Positions 13,611 through 42,151 of a stretch of 64,000 bases of DNA are shown in pieces. Origin of the DNA: Gammaproteobacteria bacterium (GTDB taxonomy: Bacteria; Pseudomonadota; Gammaproteobacteria; Pseudomonadales; Pseudohongiellaceae); the NCBI GenBank assembly GCA_002711845.1, contig PASF01000001.1, positions 541,537 to 605,536 of the forward strand, read 5' to 3'. A program made the position numbers and the translations under genes. Under the pieces are notes generated by a model that was not told the DNA's origin, did no database searches, and worked only from the letters and a program-made list of their open reading frames with translations. Each line of letters opens with the position of its first letter. Positions within the stretch are counted from its first letter, which is position 1.

Positions 13611-13634
13611 GAGATTGAGAATGATTATTGATTA
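13611..13634. promoter_or_regulatory. Fur-box-like sequence in divergent promoter region
   Basis: GAGAATGATTATTGATTA (13617-13634) with the preceding GAGATT resembles the GATAAT-repeat Fur box. It lies between the PKHD hydroxylase (-) and a lipoprotein gene (+), so iron-loaded Fur could repress both. The match is by eye and imperfect. Confidence 0.65.
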
Positions 13635-14684: not shown

Positions 14685-15344
14685 ATGAGCATTCGAATTG
14701 GCAGTATCGCGCCGGACTTCACGGCCCAGACCACTGAAGGCCAGATCCGTTTCCACGACTGGATAGGCGACAGCTGGGCGATCCTGTTTTCCCACCCCAA
14801 GGACTACACCCCGGTGTGCACCACCGAGCTGGGCTACGCCGCCAGGCTGAAACCCGAATTCGATAAGCGCAACACCAAGGTAATTGGCTTGTCCGTGGAC
14901 CCGGTGGAGAACCACACGGGCTGGGCAAAGGATATCGAAGAAACTCAGGGGACGGCGCCCAATTTTCCAATGATCGGCGATACCGACCTGAACGTCGCCA
15001 AACTGTATGACATGCTGCCTGAAGCAGAGCCGGGCAGTGCCGAGGGACGCTCCGCCGCTGATAACGCCACCGTGCGCTCGGTTTTTATTATCGGTCCGGA
15101 CAAAAAGGTCAAAGCGTTCCTGGTTTATCCCATGACCAGTGGTCGTAACTTCGAGGAGATCATGCGCCTGCTGGACTCCATCCAGTTGACCGCCAAACAC
15201 ACGGTAGCGACACCGGTGAACTGGAAAAACGGTGAGGACATCATCATCCCGCCGTCAGTCAGTGATGAGGATGCCAAAAAGAAATTCCCCGAAGGCTGGA
15301 ACACGCTGAAGCCCTACCTGCGGGTGGCCAGACAACCGAAGTGA
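14685..15344 (+). CDS. 1-Cys peroxiredoxin (Prx6 family)
   Basis: A 219-residue peroxiredoxin with the peroxidatic Cys in HPKDYTPVCTTELG and the long C-terminal extension (TPVNWKNGEDIIIPPSVSDEDAKKKFPEG) typical of the Prx6/1-Cys group. It reduces hydrogen and organic peroxides in the cytoplasm. The ATG at 14685 is preceded by AAGGAG; the frame is open upstream for 43 more codons without homology. It is on the same strand as the secreted protein at 15382, with a 37-bp gap. Confidence 0.94.
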   Translation: MSIRIGSIAPDFTAQTTEGQIRFHDWIGDSWAILFSHPKDYTPVCTTELGYAARLKPEFDKRNTKVIGLSVDPVENHTGWAKDIEETQGTAPNFPMIGDTDLNVAKLYDMLPEAEPGSAEGRSAADNATVRSVFIIGPDKKVKAFLVYPMTSGRNFEEIMRLLDSIQLTAKHTVATPVNWKNGEDIIIPPSVSDEDAKKKFPEGWNTLKPYLRVARQPK

Positions 15345-15381
15345 CAACAATAATCAGAACCGACTGTTCAGGAGAGGCACT

Positions 15382-34667: not shown

Positions 34668-35603
34668 TCAATGTTCCAGCGCCAGTGTCCGGATCTGTCT
34701 GGCAATCCAGTCGGCCACCGCGGGATGGGGCACCAGGCCGGTCTCATCGGCCACATAGTCCAGGCCGTCCAGCGCTTCGGCGTATGGGCCAAAGCCGTAG
34801 ACCCGATAAGGCACCACCAGCGCTGTTCGGCCGGCTGCATTGGCGGCAGCCACATAGTCACGCACAGTCTGCTGTGCGGCCTCGCGTTTTTCCGGCCAGT
34901 CTTCGCGCAGGGTGGCAACCTTGATGCTGTTGAAGCTGTATTCTCCGCTCAGCGCCTTGGTGCGTTCAGTGATGTAGCGTATCCAGCGTTCGTTCTCGGC
35001 GTCGTCGCCGGGTCCGTGCGCCAGTATTAACACATCCTCATTCTGCGGGTTCTTGCTCAATGCGGTGGTCCGCTCGATCAGCACGGCATCCATCTCCGGC
35101 GCTTGCGACAGGCCCTCCTGACTCAGGCGAAACCGCGCATCGCTGTCTACTCGCCAGAACTCCATGCGATGACCAGTGTGCTGGGTCGTGTGCCCGGCGT
35201 GGCCGCTGTGCTCGCCGTGCATGGCCGGTTCGGGTGCCGGTCGCTCGGGGGCGCCTTCCTGCAGCCCCAGAATCTGTTCGGTGCGCTCCAGCCAGCTTTC
35301 ACCGCTGATAAACAGACGCACCACGCCGATGTCGGTGACACCCCGCGACTCCAGCTTGCTGACCGCTTCCTGCAGTGAGTAGGCATCGGCCATACCAAAA
35401 GCGATCTCCAGTTCGTATTGTTCGCCCAGAGGTTGAAGCATTCGCGAGACGCCCTCGTCCCATGCTTGCGGCCCACCGTGGGCCATGACTACAACACCAA
35501 ATTTGCCTTCCCCTGTGTTGCTCAGGGTCTCTGCGTGAATCGCCGTCGCCTGCATCAAAAAGCACCAGGTGGCGAGTGAAATACCGCGGATAATTGTCAT
35601 CAC
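34668..35603 (-). CDS. Exported class II chelatase-fold (CbiX/SirB-like) protein with His-rich insert
   Basis: A 311-residue protein with a signal peptide (residues 1-24, SLATWCFLMQATAIHA) and two similar halves marked by VVVMAHGGP (40-45) and LILAHGPG (194-199). These resemble the His-Gly metal-site motifs of CbiX/CbiK/ferrochelatase-type chelatases. Between the halves is a His-rich stretch, residues 128-145 (HGEHSGHAGH and HTGH), a likely metal-binding loop. It sits 45 bp after a TonB haem receptor in a Fur-boxed operon, so it may insert or remove metal from a tetrapyrrole in the periplasm; that is inference. A GTG start with AGGAG at 6 bp is favoured; an ATG follows directly. Confidence 0.75.
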   Translation of the reverse strand: MMTIIRGISLATWCFLMQATAIHAETLSNTGEGKFGVVVMAHGGPQAWDEGVSRMLQPLGEQYELEIAFGMADAYSLQEAVSKLESRGVTDIGVVRLFISGESWLERTEQILGLQEGAPERPAPEPAMHGEHSGHAGHTTQHTGHRMEFWRVDSDARFRLSQEGLSQAPEMDAVLIERTTALSKNPQNEDVLILAHGPGDDAENERWIRYITERTKALSGEYSFNSIKVATLREDWPEKREAAQQTVRDYVAAANAAGRTALVVPYRVYGFGPYAEALDGLDYVADETGLVPHPAVADWIARQIRTLALEH

Positions 35604-35648
35604 ATAATTCTCCTGTCTGCCCGGCTCGGGCAGTAAATGGTTGCTACG

Positions 35649-37916
35649 TCAGAATGAAAAATTGACCGCCAGCCGGGCATTGGTGCCGGGCGCCTGGCGG
35701 TCGGCAAGCGCCTGGCTGTCGTCTGCACTCAAGCCGCGAATGCGACTCCAGTGCGCATACTGGGTATCAAAGATGTTGAACACACCAAACCGGATACTGG
35801 CATTGGGCGTCAGGTTGTAATGGCCGATCAGGTCCAGCACCTGATACGCCTCGCCAGTGACCTGATCGTCGGCGGCCACTCTGGTCTTGGCGCCCACCAC
35901 GGTGGCAATGCCTTCGATGGCCCAGCGTTCACTGGCCTGGTAGCGCAGACCGCTGACCAGGGTCACCGGATCAACCGAGTTGAGTTCGCTGTTGCTGGCT
36001 TCGTCACGGCCGCGCGCCCAGGCCAGCGAATTTCGCCAGGACAGTTGATTGCTCAGCTGCCAGTCGTAGGTGGCTTCTGCGCCATAAATGCGCGCCTTGC
36101 CAATATTGCTGTCCTGAAACAGCATGATGCCGTCCTGCATGCCCACCAGCGCACTTTCGATAAAGTCGTCGTAGCGGTTGTTGAAGAGGGCAACACTAAA
36201 GCGAGCAGTGTCAGTTGTCCCACGTAAACCGATTTCCAGTCCACGGCTGGTCTCGGCTTTCAGGTCGGGGTTGGGGACCGTGGCATAGCCATGGCCCAGA
36301 TTGACAAAGGCCTGGTTGGCTTCGTCAAAGTTGGGTGGCCGGAAACCTTCTGCGTATTGCGCGAAACCACTCAGGCTGGCAGCGAACCTGTAGATCGCGC
36401 CCAGATTGTAGGAGACATTGCTTTCATCAAATTTGCTGATCGCGAATCCGCCCCACTGCGAGATGTCGCCGGTGCCCGTAAACAGGTCCTCGGTACGCGG
36501 ATCCATTTGATAGCGGTCATAGCGCAGCCCGGGAATGACAATAAGGTTCTCGTCCATGAGAGAGATTTCATCCTGAATAAAAACGCCGCTGCGCACCGTG
36601 CGGGTATCCGGGAAGGTCTTGTTGGGGAAGACTTCCGGTGGAGCCATCGGATAGCTGGGGATGGCATGGCTGACGTTGCCGGTGCTGATCTCGGTATCGA
36701 ATCGGTCACGGGGGCGTTCAGTGTCCGTGTGTTCGTAGCTTAATCCGTACACCAGGTCATGGCTGCTATTGTTCAACGCCAGACTTTTGTTGGCGATAAC
36801 CATGCCGCTGAAGGTATCCTGATTGAATTCGAGGCTGGTAAAGCGTTCAGCCAGGCTGCCCCGAAAGCTGGCAGGACTGCGTGGGTTGACGAAGGCATAA
36901 CTGATGCGGGTCTGTTCGGTCTGCTGATCGGCCTCGGTCCGCTGCTGGTGCAGGCGTGTGCTGACATTGTCGGCCAGCCTACCCTGCAGTGCCCAGTCAT
37001 GCATCAGGCTGAGGCGGCGCCGGTTGGTGGTGTCCCTGCCCACCGAGCGGGATACACTGGTGCTCAGTTCACTGTCGAGTCGGGTGTCAATGTCGCGGTC
37101 ACTGGCCTCCACGGCCAGTTGCAGCGTCTGCCGGGCCGTGGCATCCCAGTGCGTTTTCCAGAACAGGTTGCGACTCTCGCCGTCCTGCGGGTTGAGTTCG
37201 CCCTCACCCTTGACGGCCTGCTCCTCAAAGTCGCGTCGGGTCAGTTGCAGCACACTGCCGATTGTGCCGGATTGACCCGCGATGGTCGCACCGAGTTTGC
37301 GCTGATTGTTGTCGCTGCTGCCCGCGGCGCGAAGATCAGTATGAACAGGCTGACCCGCCGACAGGTAGTCATCGGCATCACGGGTGCGCAGCAATACCAC
37401 GCCGCCCAGGGCATCGGCGCCATACAGAACCGAGGCGGGGCCGCGGATCACTTCCACCGCCTTGAGGTCGTCCACTTCAAAACCATCCTTGCCGTAGGAA
37501 GAGGGGCCCGCCGCATACATGTCAGTGCTGCGCACGCCATCAATGACGGTCAGCACGCGATTTCCGCCAATGCCGCGGATGCTGAAGCCTTCATCGCCAC
37601 CCCGGGCAGCCGTGTCCATGCCGAGTCCCGGTTGATAACGAACCACGTCGGCGAGGCTGTCTGCCAGGGTCTGGCGGATTTCGTCGTCGGTCACCACAGA
37701 TACCGTACCAGCGATATCCTGCGCGCGACGCTGCAGATAGGTTGCGGTGACAATGACTTCATCGACCGAGGGCGGGGCAGTGTCCGGCGCTTGCGCGGAC
37801 AGGGGTGATGTGGCCAACAGGGTCAGCGCCGGCACCAGAATACTGAGTGCCCGGCGTTTGCCTGGAAATTGTGCGCCTGCTGGATACGTGAATGCAGATG
37901 TTGTGGGCATGGGCAT
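35649..37916 (-). CDS. TonB-dependent haem/haemoglobin receptor
   Basis: A 755-residue outer-membrane receptor. Order: signal peptide ending SPLSAQA; TonB box-like DEVIVTA; plug domain (QDIAGTVSVVTDDEI, RGIGGNRVLTVIDGVR, VEVIRGPASVLYGADALGGVV); then a beta-barrel including the FRPPNFDEANQAF and NPDLKAETSRGLE motifs shared by haem receptors, ending in a Phe (NFSF). Haem or haemoglobin specificity is supported by the upstream hemP gene. The ATG at 37916 has a perfect AGGAG; earlier in-frame ATGs do not. Confidence 0.9.
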   Translation of the reverse strand: MPMPTTSAFTYPAGAQFPGKRRALSILVPALTLLATSPLSAQAPDTAPPSVDEVIVTATYLQRRAQDIAGTVSVVTDDEIRQTLADSLADVVRYQPGLGMDTAARGGDEGFSIRGIGGNRVLTVIDGVRSTDMYAAGPSSYGKDGFEVDDLKAVEVIRGPASVLYGADALGGVVLLRTRDADDYLSAGQPVHTDLRAAGSSDNNQRKLGATIAGQSGTIGSVLQLTRRDFEEQAVKGEGELNPQDGESRNLFWKTHWDATARQTLQLAVEASDRDIDTRLDSELSTSVSRSVGRDTTNRRRLSLMHDWALQGRLADNVSTRLHQQRTEADQQTEQTRISYAFVNPRSPASFRGSLAERFTSLEFNQDTFSGMVIANKSLALNNSSHDLVYGLSYEHTDTERPRDRFDTEISTGNVSHAIPSYPMAPPEVFPNKTFPDTRTVRSGVFIQDEISLMDENLIVIPGLRYDRYQMDPRTEDLFTGTGDISQWGGFAISKFDESNVSYNLGAIYRFAASLSGFAQYAEGFRPPNFDEANQAFVNLGHGYATVPNPDLKAETSRGLEIGLRGTTDTARFSVALFNNRYDDFIESALVGMQDGIMLFQDSNIGKARIYGAEATYDWQLSNQLSWRNSLAWARGRDEASNSELNSVDPVTLVSGLRYQASERWAIEGIATVVGAKTRVAADDQVTGEAYQVLDLIGHYNLTPNASIRFGVFNIFDTQYAHWSRIRGLSADDSQALADRQAPGTNARLAVNFSF

Positions 37917-38060
37917 AGCTCTCCTGTAAAAAGAGAGTCGGGCTGGCTGCCATGCACATTGCATCGGGGTGGCTGGCTGGACTCGAAACCGCTGCAATGA
38001 GGGGATCGCAGCGCTACGTGACGCTTACTACGTCGGTTCAAAACCTCGGTTAAAGCCTGG

Positions 38061-38228
38061 TTACTTGGTCAGTATCAACTTGCCGGTCGCGGTGATACGC
38101 AAGGCATAACGCTCACCATTGTGTTCGATGGCAATCATCCTGCGGCCCTGAAACAGGGTTTTGCTGCTGATCACGGGCGTCGGGTTGTTGCTGCCGGTTG
38201 TGGCCGGCTTGGGACAGCTGTCGGCCAT
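38061..38228 (-). CDS. hemP: Haemin uptake protein HemP
   Basis: A 55-residue HemP-family protein: PVISSKTLFQGRRMIAIEHNGERYALRITATGKLILTK is the conserved block (only its parts are needed: TLFQG, I.HNGE.Y.LR.T..GKLILTK). HemP is a small protein always found in haem-uptake loci, thought to help regulate or express the receptor. The ATG at 38228 follows AGAGGAG; another ATG 27 bp upstream has no RBS. A Fur box lies about 80 bp upstream, and the receptor gene follows after 144 bp. Confidence 0.9.
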   Translation of the reverse strand: MADSCPKPATTGSNNPTPVISSKTLFQGRRMIAIEHNGERYALRITATGKLILTK

Positions 38229-38304
38229 GGCTTGCACTCCTCTGGATCGGGTCATGGTTAACAAGGAAGTGCCATGATAAAAGCTTCTAAATAAAAATAC
38301 AAAC

Positions 38305-38320
38305 AATAATCATTATCATT
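38305..38320. promoter_or_regulatory. Fur box upstream of hemP
   Basis: AATAATCATTATCATT, read on the minus strand as AATGATAATGATTATT, is a close match to repeated NATAAT Fur units. It lies upstream of hemP and would place hemP, the receptor and the exported chelatase-like gene under iron repression. Confidence 0.85.
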
Positions 38321-38342
38321 ACGATATTTTTCGGGGAGTGCT

Positions 38343-41492: not shown

Positions 41493-41584
41493 TGCAAGGC
41501 TGATGGTTGCGGGTACCGATTTGGCATCACCTTTATTGATCTCTATACTGTGGTCTATCAATCATAAACTGGAGTTTAGTGTCT

Positions 41585-42151
41585 ATGATGACCATGAAGA
41601 AAATCGTTTATCCGTTTGCACTCGCCTCTGCGGTTGCTGCCTGCGGCCAGGACACAGAGGTCGTGGAAACCCAGGCTGCCGTTGAATCGCAGGCTGAAGC
41701 CTTCTCTGAGCTCGTGGCCGTGCTGCACCCGGCATCCGGCAGTGATGTAGAGGGTGTGGTATTGTTTTCCAATACCGATGAAGGCGTCAGGGTGGGCGCG
41801 CAGGTCAACGGGCTGGCGCCGATGAGTTCTCACGGTTTCCATATACATGAGTTCGGTGACTGCCGGGATGCCGATGCCGGCTCAGCCGGCGGACATTTTA
41901 ATCCCCATGGACAACCACATGGCGCGCCGGATGCCGAGCGGCGCCACATCGGTGATCTGGGTAACCTGGTGACCAATGGTGCCGGTGTTGCGCAGACCAA
42001 TGTGGTGGATCCTGAGCTGTCATTCGCGGGTGCAGATTCGATTCTGGGGCGTGCTGTCGTGATTCATGCTGGCGCGGATGATCTGCAGAGCCAGCCGTCC
42101 GGTGATGCCGGCGCACGCATTGCGTGCGGCGTCATCGGTGTCGGTAGCTGA
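41585..42151 (+). CDS. sodC: Cu-Zn superoxide dismutase, lipoprotein type
   Basis: A 188-residue SodC. Copper/zinc ligands appear in GFHIHEFGDC, GGHFNPHGQPHG and HIGDLGN (metal His and Asp), with GRAVVIHAGADDL and GARIACGVIG completing the fold and the disulfide. The N-terminus (ASAVAAC) is a lipobox ending at Cys20, so it is probably anchored in the envelope. It removes superoxide in the periplasm. GGAG precedes the start by 10 bp; a GTG two codons earlier is possible. It ends four bases before the convergent PQQ dehydrogenase gene. Confidence 0.95.
   Translation: MMTMKKIVYPFALASAVAACGQDTEVVETQAAVESQAEAFSELVAVLHPASGSDVEGVVLFSNTDEGVRVGAQVNGLAPMSSHGFHIHEFGDCRDADAGSAGGHFNPHGQPHGAPDAERRHIGDLGNLVTNGAGVAQTNVVDPELSFAGADSILGRAVVIHAGADDLQSQPSGDAGARIACGVIGVGS

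Follow-up and report, generated by a model that had tools for sequence, protein, structure and literature searches.

The 64,000-nucleotide stretch analysed here (the window; contig PASF01000001.1, positions 541,537 to 605,536) comes from the genome of a marine-type gammaproteobacterium, 3.6 Mb long and 99.98% complete, and carries on its minus strand a run in which a Fur-like box is followed by hemP, a haem-type TonB receptor gene and the gene of an apparently secreted 311-amino-acid protein, the last being the subject of this report. The Fur-box-like palindrome lies upstream of hemP at about 38305..38323 (-) and matches GATAATGATAATCATTATC at 15 of 19 positions; in the 7-1-7 form its core, 38304-38318, has two mismatches to TGATAATNATTATCA and is the only such site in the window, where sites with at most three mismatches number six against 0.81 +/- 0.98 in shuffled sequences. 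hemP (38061..38255, -) encodes a 64-residue haemin uptake protein (Pfam PF10636, 63.3 bits, cut-off 25), and the TonB-dependent outer-membrane receptor of haem/haemoglobin type (35649..37916, -) scores 401 bits to TIGR01786 (cut-off 324) and 366 bits to TIGR01785 (cut-off 317), with Plug and barrel domains present. The third gene (34668..35603, -; mature part about 34668-35531), predicted to encode an exported protein of class II chelatase fold, follows the receptor gene after a 45-base gap and starts with a GTG and then an ATG, with AGGAG upstream. Box, hemP and receptor in this order apparently make up an iron-regulated haem-uptake operon. The original prediction, made from the letters of the DNA, had named a Fur box, HemP, a TonB haem receptor and a secreted third-gene product with two chelatase-like halves and a His-rich insert, and all of these are present on the minus strand where it had placed them.

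In a sample of 369 genomes from its own class, the 311-residue protein (the window protein) has matches in 7, the window's own included; a scan of genome contigs that began from the window protein found 48 loci, most of them in records that bear the label Gamma- or Alphaproteobacteria. The labels Planctomycetota, Gemmatimonadetes, Armatimonadetes, Nitrospira, Scalindua, Elusimicrobia and some others each apply to one or two metagenome-assembled genome (MAG) records. The two loci closest by the chelatase-fold gene (84-89% identical) are labelled Pseudohongiella and uncultured Gammaproteobacteria. The counts given below refer to 56 loci, numbered L013-L068, among which close relatives are over-represented because of the starting point of the scan, so that the loci are not independent.

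The N-terminus of the window protein, MTIIRGISLATWCFLMQATAIHA-ETL, has the look of a signal peptide, with a hydrophobic stretch ending in AHA. A crude test finds a strongly hydrophobic, signal-like N-terminus ahead of the domain in 54 of 55 relative open reading frames (ORFs; the test covered at most some 80 residues preceding the domain, start codon unfixed, three truncated ORFs omitted) as against 156 of 339 other genes in a similar test, for which the first 60 residues of the called genes were taken. Export to the periplasm, as had been proposed, is thus predicted from the signal-like N-terminus and is a property that the relatives appear to share. A lipobox-like motif is found in 20 of the 55 ORFs and is lacking in the window protein, which should therefore be soluble in the periplasm.

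The relationship to chelatases is only weakly signalled by the sequence of the window protein taken alone. It carries the chelatase-like motifs VVVMAHGGP and LILAHGPG; its score to the Pfam CbiX family is 18.7 bits, under the cut-off of 22, phmmer against the PDB finds a chelatase at E 0.17, and Pfam CbiK gives no match at E up to 1. Two long-form relatives score 19.0 (L062, below the CbiX cut-off) and 49.7 (L061, above it), the best stretch of the latter falling in its extra N-terminal pair of halves. Structure and profile comparisons back the fold strongly. An alignment of 58 rows (A1; 57 of 58 relative ORFs, the fragment L059 being omitted and the start of L049 set by hand) gave an AlphaFold2 model with a predicted local distance difference test score (pLDDT) of 93.4 and a predicted TM-score (pTM) of 0.90. 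The best structural match of this model is SirB (Z 19.3, root mean square deviation 3.0 over 232 residues), followed by the periplasmic CbiK of Desulfovibrio (Z 16.9), CbiX (16.9) and P. gingivalis FetB (16.4), which we take to be the same protein as IhtB; CpfC/HemH match at Z about 15-16.6, and a Foldseek comparison also supports the fold. The model shows a pair of similar alpha/beta halves flanking a tetrapyrrole cleft, as is characteristic of class II chelatases, and the CbiK, CbiX, FetB and HemH/CpfC entries all match it at Z of at least 15, so that the predicted structure agrees with the proposed chelatase halves and is not an unrelated fold. The less confident part is the His-rich insert (residues 114-145, 35169..35264, -), with pLDDT values of 66 and 53 at mature residues 101-120; in CfbA of the M. 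jannaschii type (6m25) a stretch rich in His occupies the same place. In profile searches A1 finds CfbA at E 4.2e-10, in good part from the His-rich stretch common to both; a shorter CfbA construct, aligned without that stretch, gives E 0.0051, and the N half alone matches CbiX and CfbA at E 0.0007-0.002. When profiles are compared with that of 28 canonical CbiX sequences (30 loci less the empty L087 and the truncated L099), the N half reaches a probability of 96.7% and the C half one of 94.0%.

The metal site is where this family departs from the canonical enzymes. Excerpts of PMC11301274 place the metal ligands at His10/Glu43/His76 in SirB and His9/Glu42/His75 in CfbA, and the canonical CbiX set keeps each triad position in 27 of 28 sequences. 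Aligned to SirB His10 and CfbA His9 is His42 (35478..35480, -), the first-strand His of the N half, present in every one of the 56 rows that cover it; Met71 (35391..35393, -), likewise Met in 56 of 56, takes the position of the Glu that serves as metal ligand; and the second His falls in a gap beside S103/W104, with His in at most three rows at any of positions 101-103. The C half keeps its first-strand His, His196 (35016..35018, -), in 57 of 57 rows, as it does D235; the equivalent of the Glu is by alignment Thr231 or Arg233, and the position of the second His falls on P273/Y274. Read from the alignment, the canonical His-Glu-His triad is therefore not conserved in either half of window-type proteins, which makes a classical metal-inserting enzyme unlikely and speaks for haem binding rather than for the usual chemistry of a chelatase. 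The strictness of the H42/M71/H196/D235 signature argues that these are not randomly decayed copies of a chelatase, and two His residues, one per half, together with a Met are plausible ligands of haem iron. A HemH-type active-site Glu was also sought; the candidate in the C half, E276, matched by eye to the HemH motif, is Glu in 13 of 57 rows and was rejected.

The association with haem-uptake genes foreseen in the original prediction recurs widely among the relatives. A same-strand TonB receptor lies within 1.5 kb in 31 of the 56 loci, HemP within 4 kb in 18 and a HmuY-like protein nearby in 6, and at least one of receptor, HemP, HmuY and DUF6607 is found within 3.5 kb on the same strand in 35; these neighbours were found by single-query phmmer and may be under-counted. 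In L017, from Pseudohongiella nitratireducens, hemP adjoins the gene. Receptors were counted in 29 of 34 genomes chosen for component searches (the window's, six from the class sample and those of 27 of the 48 scan loci), at 2 to at least 40 per genome, the counts for L027 and L030 being first-look candidate counts (scoring covered 40); the five omitted genomes are those of L043, L044, L046, L050 and G368. Besides the window's, the gene adjoins a receptor in 22 of 28 counted genomes, a flattering ratio since none of the five omitted genomes has an adjacent receptor, where about 0.23 would be expected at 930 genes per Mb and a factor of 1.2 to allow for two neighbours on the same strand. Among the cleanest cases are several genomes that have no more than 2-6 receptors (L049, L051, L055, L060, L061). 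Haem-family receptor cut-offs are passed in the window, L053, L061, L026 and L033 and are not passed in L060. A Fur-like box of at least 14/19 is present upstream in the window and in 20 of the 40 loci examined out of 56; with 60 mononucleotide shuffles each, 18 of the 20 were equalled by 0-1 shuffles, L033 by 4 and L036 by 2. Such a box is found also in L022 and L047, both of which lack an adjacent receptor. The gene context of the chelatase-fold family is not random.

Taken together, the window protein is very probably an exported protein of class II chelatase fold that serves haem uptake, and there is about an even chance that it acts, more particularly, as a periplasmic haem acceptor built on a chelatase scaffold. 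On this account the protein would be co-produced with HemP and the haem receptor when iron is scarce, would take up in the periplasm the haem imported by the TonB receptor, and would seat it in the cleft between its two halves, where class II chelatases hold tetrapyrroles; the haem would be gripped by the invariant H42 and H196, possibly also by Met71, and it or its iron would be passed to a later step encoded outside the operon locus. We infer haem as the ligand, H42/M71/H196 as its binders and the direction of the transfer.

Several observations weigh against the haem acceptor or leave it incomplete. On the same strand, none of receptor, HemP, HmuY and DUF6607 is nearby in 21 of the 56 loci; several of these are contig ends, and L025, L040, L044, L050, L054 and others are not. 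The fairer ratio of receptor adjacency, with the five uncounted genomes included, is 22 of 33, the expectation still being well under 1. Five distant paralogues in one genome (G368) had no receptor or HemP found nearby. The geometry by which H42 and H196 would grip haem is hypothetical, the AlphaFold2 model being ligand-free, and a His at position 269 in 13 of 57 rows, four places from the aligned second-His position, may provide a shifted metal site in part of the family. Further, a carrier alone leaves the destination of the haem unspecified, and no recognisable next step was found in the window's genome in searches for HemS, haem oxygenase, DUF2470, FeoB and FTR1, none of which was matched. 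One FecCD permease there is over its cut-off, its best NCBIfam model being BtuC, below every cut-off; since the adjoining ATPase reaches 194 bits against a model of haem transporters (cut-off 261), it may still be that a haem ATP-binding cassette (ABC) importer is present.

There is precedent for haem-linked class II chelatases that are exported, and the claim of the original prediction that no function had been established for such an exported protein does not stand, since IhtB/FetB and the CbiKP of Desulfovibrio vulgaris have already been described as such. The window protein resembles both in combining the fold with a predicted export signal; its sequence does not place it in the CbiK/FetB family. 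The gene of IhtB/FetB (PDB 9b86; Z 16.4) likewise accompanies that of a TonB receptor, IhtA, the two belonging to a system for haem/iron uptake, and excerpts of PMC10913741 describe IhtB as a lipoprotein and CbiK homologue of P. gingivalis that is proposed to remove iron from haem. The differences are that FetB and the window protein share 14% identity over the structural match, with a sequence E of 0.25-0.45, and that the Iht system has, in the excerpted reports, its own ABC transporter and an IhtB that is not PgFur-regulated. CbiKP (PDB 2xvx, 2xvz; Z 16.9) is named periplasmic, and one paper's title calls it haem-binding; going by titles it is a functional cobaltochelatase, whereas the window family lacks the canonical triad. 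SirB, CbiX and CfbA provide the best structural match (SirB) and the best sequence matches (CfbA), but unlike them the window protein has a signal-like N-terminus, is without the conserved Glu and second His and falls below the CbiX cut-off. A parallel of another kind is HmuS of the Bacteroidota hmu operon, a chelatase homologue placed, according to extracts of the literature, with HmuY and a TonB haem receptor; it is a candidate haem dechelatase thought to help release haem iron in the periplasm (excerpts of PMC10100974). It differs in using another scaffold than the class II fold, being described in part of PMC13227078 as similar to CobN and ChlH and without similarity to CbiK or HemH.

The removal of iron from haem, one of the roles originally suggested for the window protein, is the main rival to the haem acceptor. 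As a reverse chelatase the protein would strip haem of its iron in the periplasm at a non-canonical His/Met/His site, the iron entering as ions and the porphyrin being discarded or reused; this we hold to be unlikely. Its precedents are the proposed activity of IhtB/FetB and the part that HmuS is thought to play, and it would suit a genome in which neither HemS nor haem oxygenase is matched, haem oxygenase being found in 1 of the 34 genomes searched. Neighbouring genes also lend it something: in L061 the receptor is immediately preceded, on its upstream side, by an FTR1-type iron permease that has a cytochrome c domain, and a PepSY_TM protein stands beside the gene in L063 (same strand, by Pfam) and in L047 (other strand, by phmmer only). 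PepSY_TM proteins are often linked to iron reduction. Against these stands the site itself, where neither half conserves the metal-accepting Glu or the second His, and this leaves haem binding the favoured function. A candidate importer for the released ions is lacking as well: FeoB, tried as the iron route, is present in 13 of the 34 genomes and unmatched in the other 21, the window's among them, and FTR1, tried as a general route, is unmatched in 24 (present in 10) and stands beside the gene only in L061. The absence of HemS, which might seem to speak for periplasmic iron release, was dropped as an argument; it proves nothing, because HemS is rare in the class in any case (19 of 274 genomes, and 4 of the 34 bearing relatives).

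Two further readings give a part to the His-rich insert, which in the window protein has 6 His in 32 residues. Exchange or insertion of a metal such as Mn or Co into an imported porphyrin appears improbable; it draws on the Mn-protoporphyrin dependent on FetB, a protein of the same fold into whose activity, according to excerpts of the review PMC13402209, the insertion of Mn into protoporphyrin falls, and the insert could serve to gather the metal, but the canonical ligands are not conserved and the insert is free of His in several relatives that have the same neighbourhood of hemP and receptor. A periplasmic metal store or chaperone acting through the insert, for which the chelatase fold would be no more than a scaffold, seems very improbable indeed. 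At least three His are present in the insert in 30 of 55 sequences, so that the storage of metal that had been suggested keeps some weak support; the invariant residues, however, lie in the chelatase-like strands, and the insert is variable or without His in many relatives, for which variability it was rejected as the functional core.

The family is a new widespread variant and not a new category, because haem-linked exported class II chelatases are known in IhtB/FetB and CbiKP; for the family itself, how widely it is spread and the change in its metal site, no describing paper was recognised among titles and the beginnings of abstracts in open-licence PubMed Central. The question of how iron is obtained from imported haem without haem oxygenase has been studied in gut and oral Bacteroidota, and the present family links a further scaffold with haem receptors, in free-living Proteobacteria as well as in Nitrospirota-type and other genomes. 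The residue signature H42, M71 and H196 is precise and distinct from the canonical CbiX/SirB/CfbA site, and annotation may be corrected by it, as genes of this kind are easily mistaken for those of cobalamin or sirohaem chelatases. It is a doubtful proposition that marine, nitrifying and other free-living bacteria possess in these proteins widespread periplasmic haem-iron extractors, in which the class II scaffold is run in reverse and two His, one per half, and an invariant Met hold haem and assist the release of its iron outside the cytoplasm without haem oxygenase, in a role parallel to that of Bacteroidota HmuS.

The family takes three forms. Form A, of about 300 amino acids and two halves, includes the window protein and most of the loci. 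Form B, of about 570-690 amino acids as open frames, has a second chelatase-like pair ahead of the conserved one; a model from an alignment of 12 full-length cases (A2) has pLDDT 84.4, its residues 19-275 match class II chelatases (CpfC, Z 17.3), and the match to SirB (Z 18.8) has an aligned range of 22-555. An invariant DRG motif replaces the first HG motif in the extra pair. Form C comprises the five G368 paralogues, which occupy three places (L066, L067 and L068; two of these hold a pair each and one a single paralogue) and whose function may differ. Relatives of 30-35% identity, annotated as hypothetical proteins, occur on the Candidatus Manganitrophus plasmid records CP114554, CP114559 and CP114562, the plasmids being predicted non-mobilizable.

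Other small or unexpected genes accompany the family at particular loci. HmuY is best known from Bacteroidota; HmuY-like proteins are found here at L060:10774-12015 (beside the gene; Pfam 68.5 bits), L055:13261-14811, L051:4393-5973, L045, L052 and L062, all but L060 by phmmer only, in records labelled Nitrospiria/Nitrospira, Manganitrophaceae, Gemmatimonadetes and Gammaproteobacteria. A DUF6607 gene, possibly a further haem-uptake component, stands beside the chelatase gene at L019:75-1199, L026:8563-9552, L027 and L030, with a receptor also in 3 of the 4, and DUF2325 is a neighbour in L056. In form B loci, small proteins of DUF6686 type are encoded between the receptor gene and that of the chelatase (L051:2386-2604, with a Pfam score above cut-off, L055:10953-11180 and L060:8439-8651). 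Downstream in some form A loci are cysteine-containing ORFs of about 68 amino acids (L033:11190-11393, L036:11233-11436), and an unannotated ORF of about 89 amino acids, without a convincing Pfam match, usually lies just 3' of the chelatase gene in a cluster of seven loci from Gammaproteobacteria MAGs (L039:10828-11094, L033:10908-11171, L036:10951-11214, L035 and L038 among them).

In the window itself a DUF924 gene lies upstream of the Fur-like box and hemP operon, and the next same-strand gene after the chelatase-fold gene encodes a GGDEF protein, which is not counted as part of the operon because, by gene clustering, only the closest relatives, L013 and L014, have a GGDEF gene in that position. 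A scan for promoters and terminators was uninformative, with no promoter-like site and with two terminator-like sites against 3.6 in shuffled sequences, neither of them between the chelatase-fold gene and the next. Other Fur-like sites in the window, with three mismatches each, include 13616-13630 and 15342-15356. An ORF at 41579-42151 (+) with a lipobox-like start may encode a Cu/Zn superoxide dismutase, reading like one by its motif.

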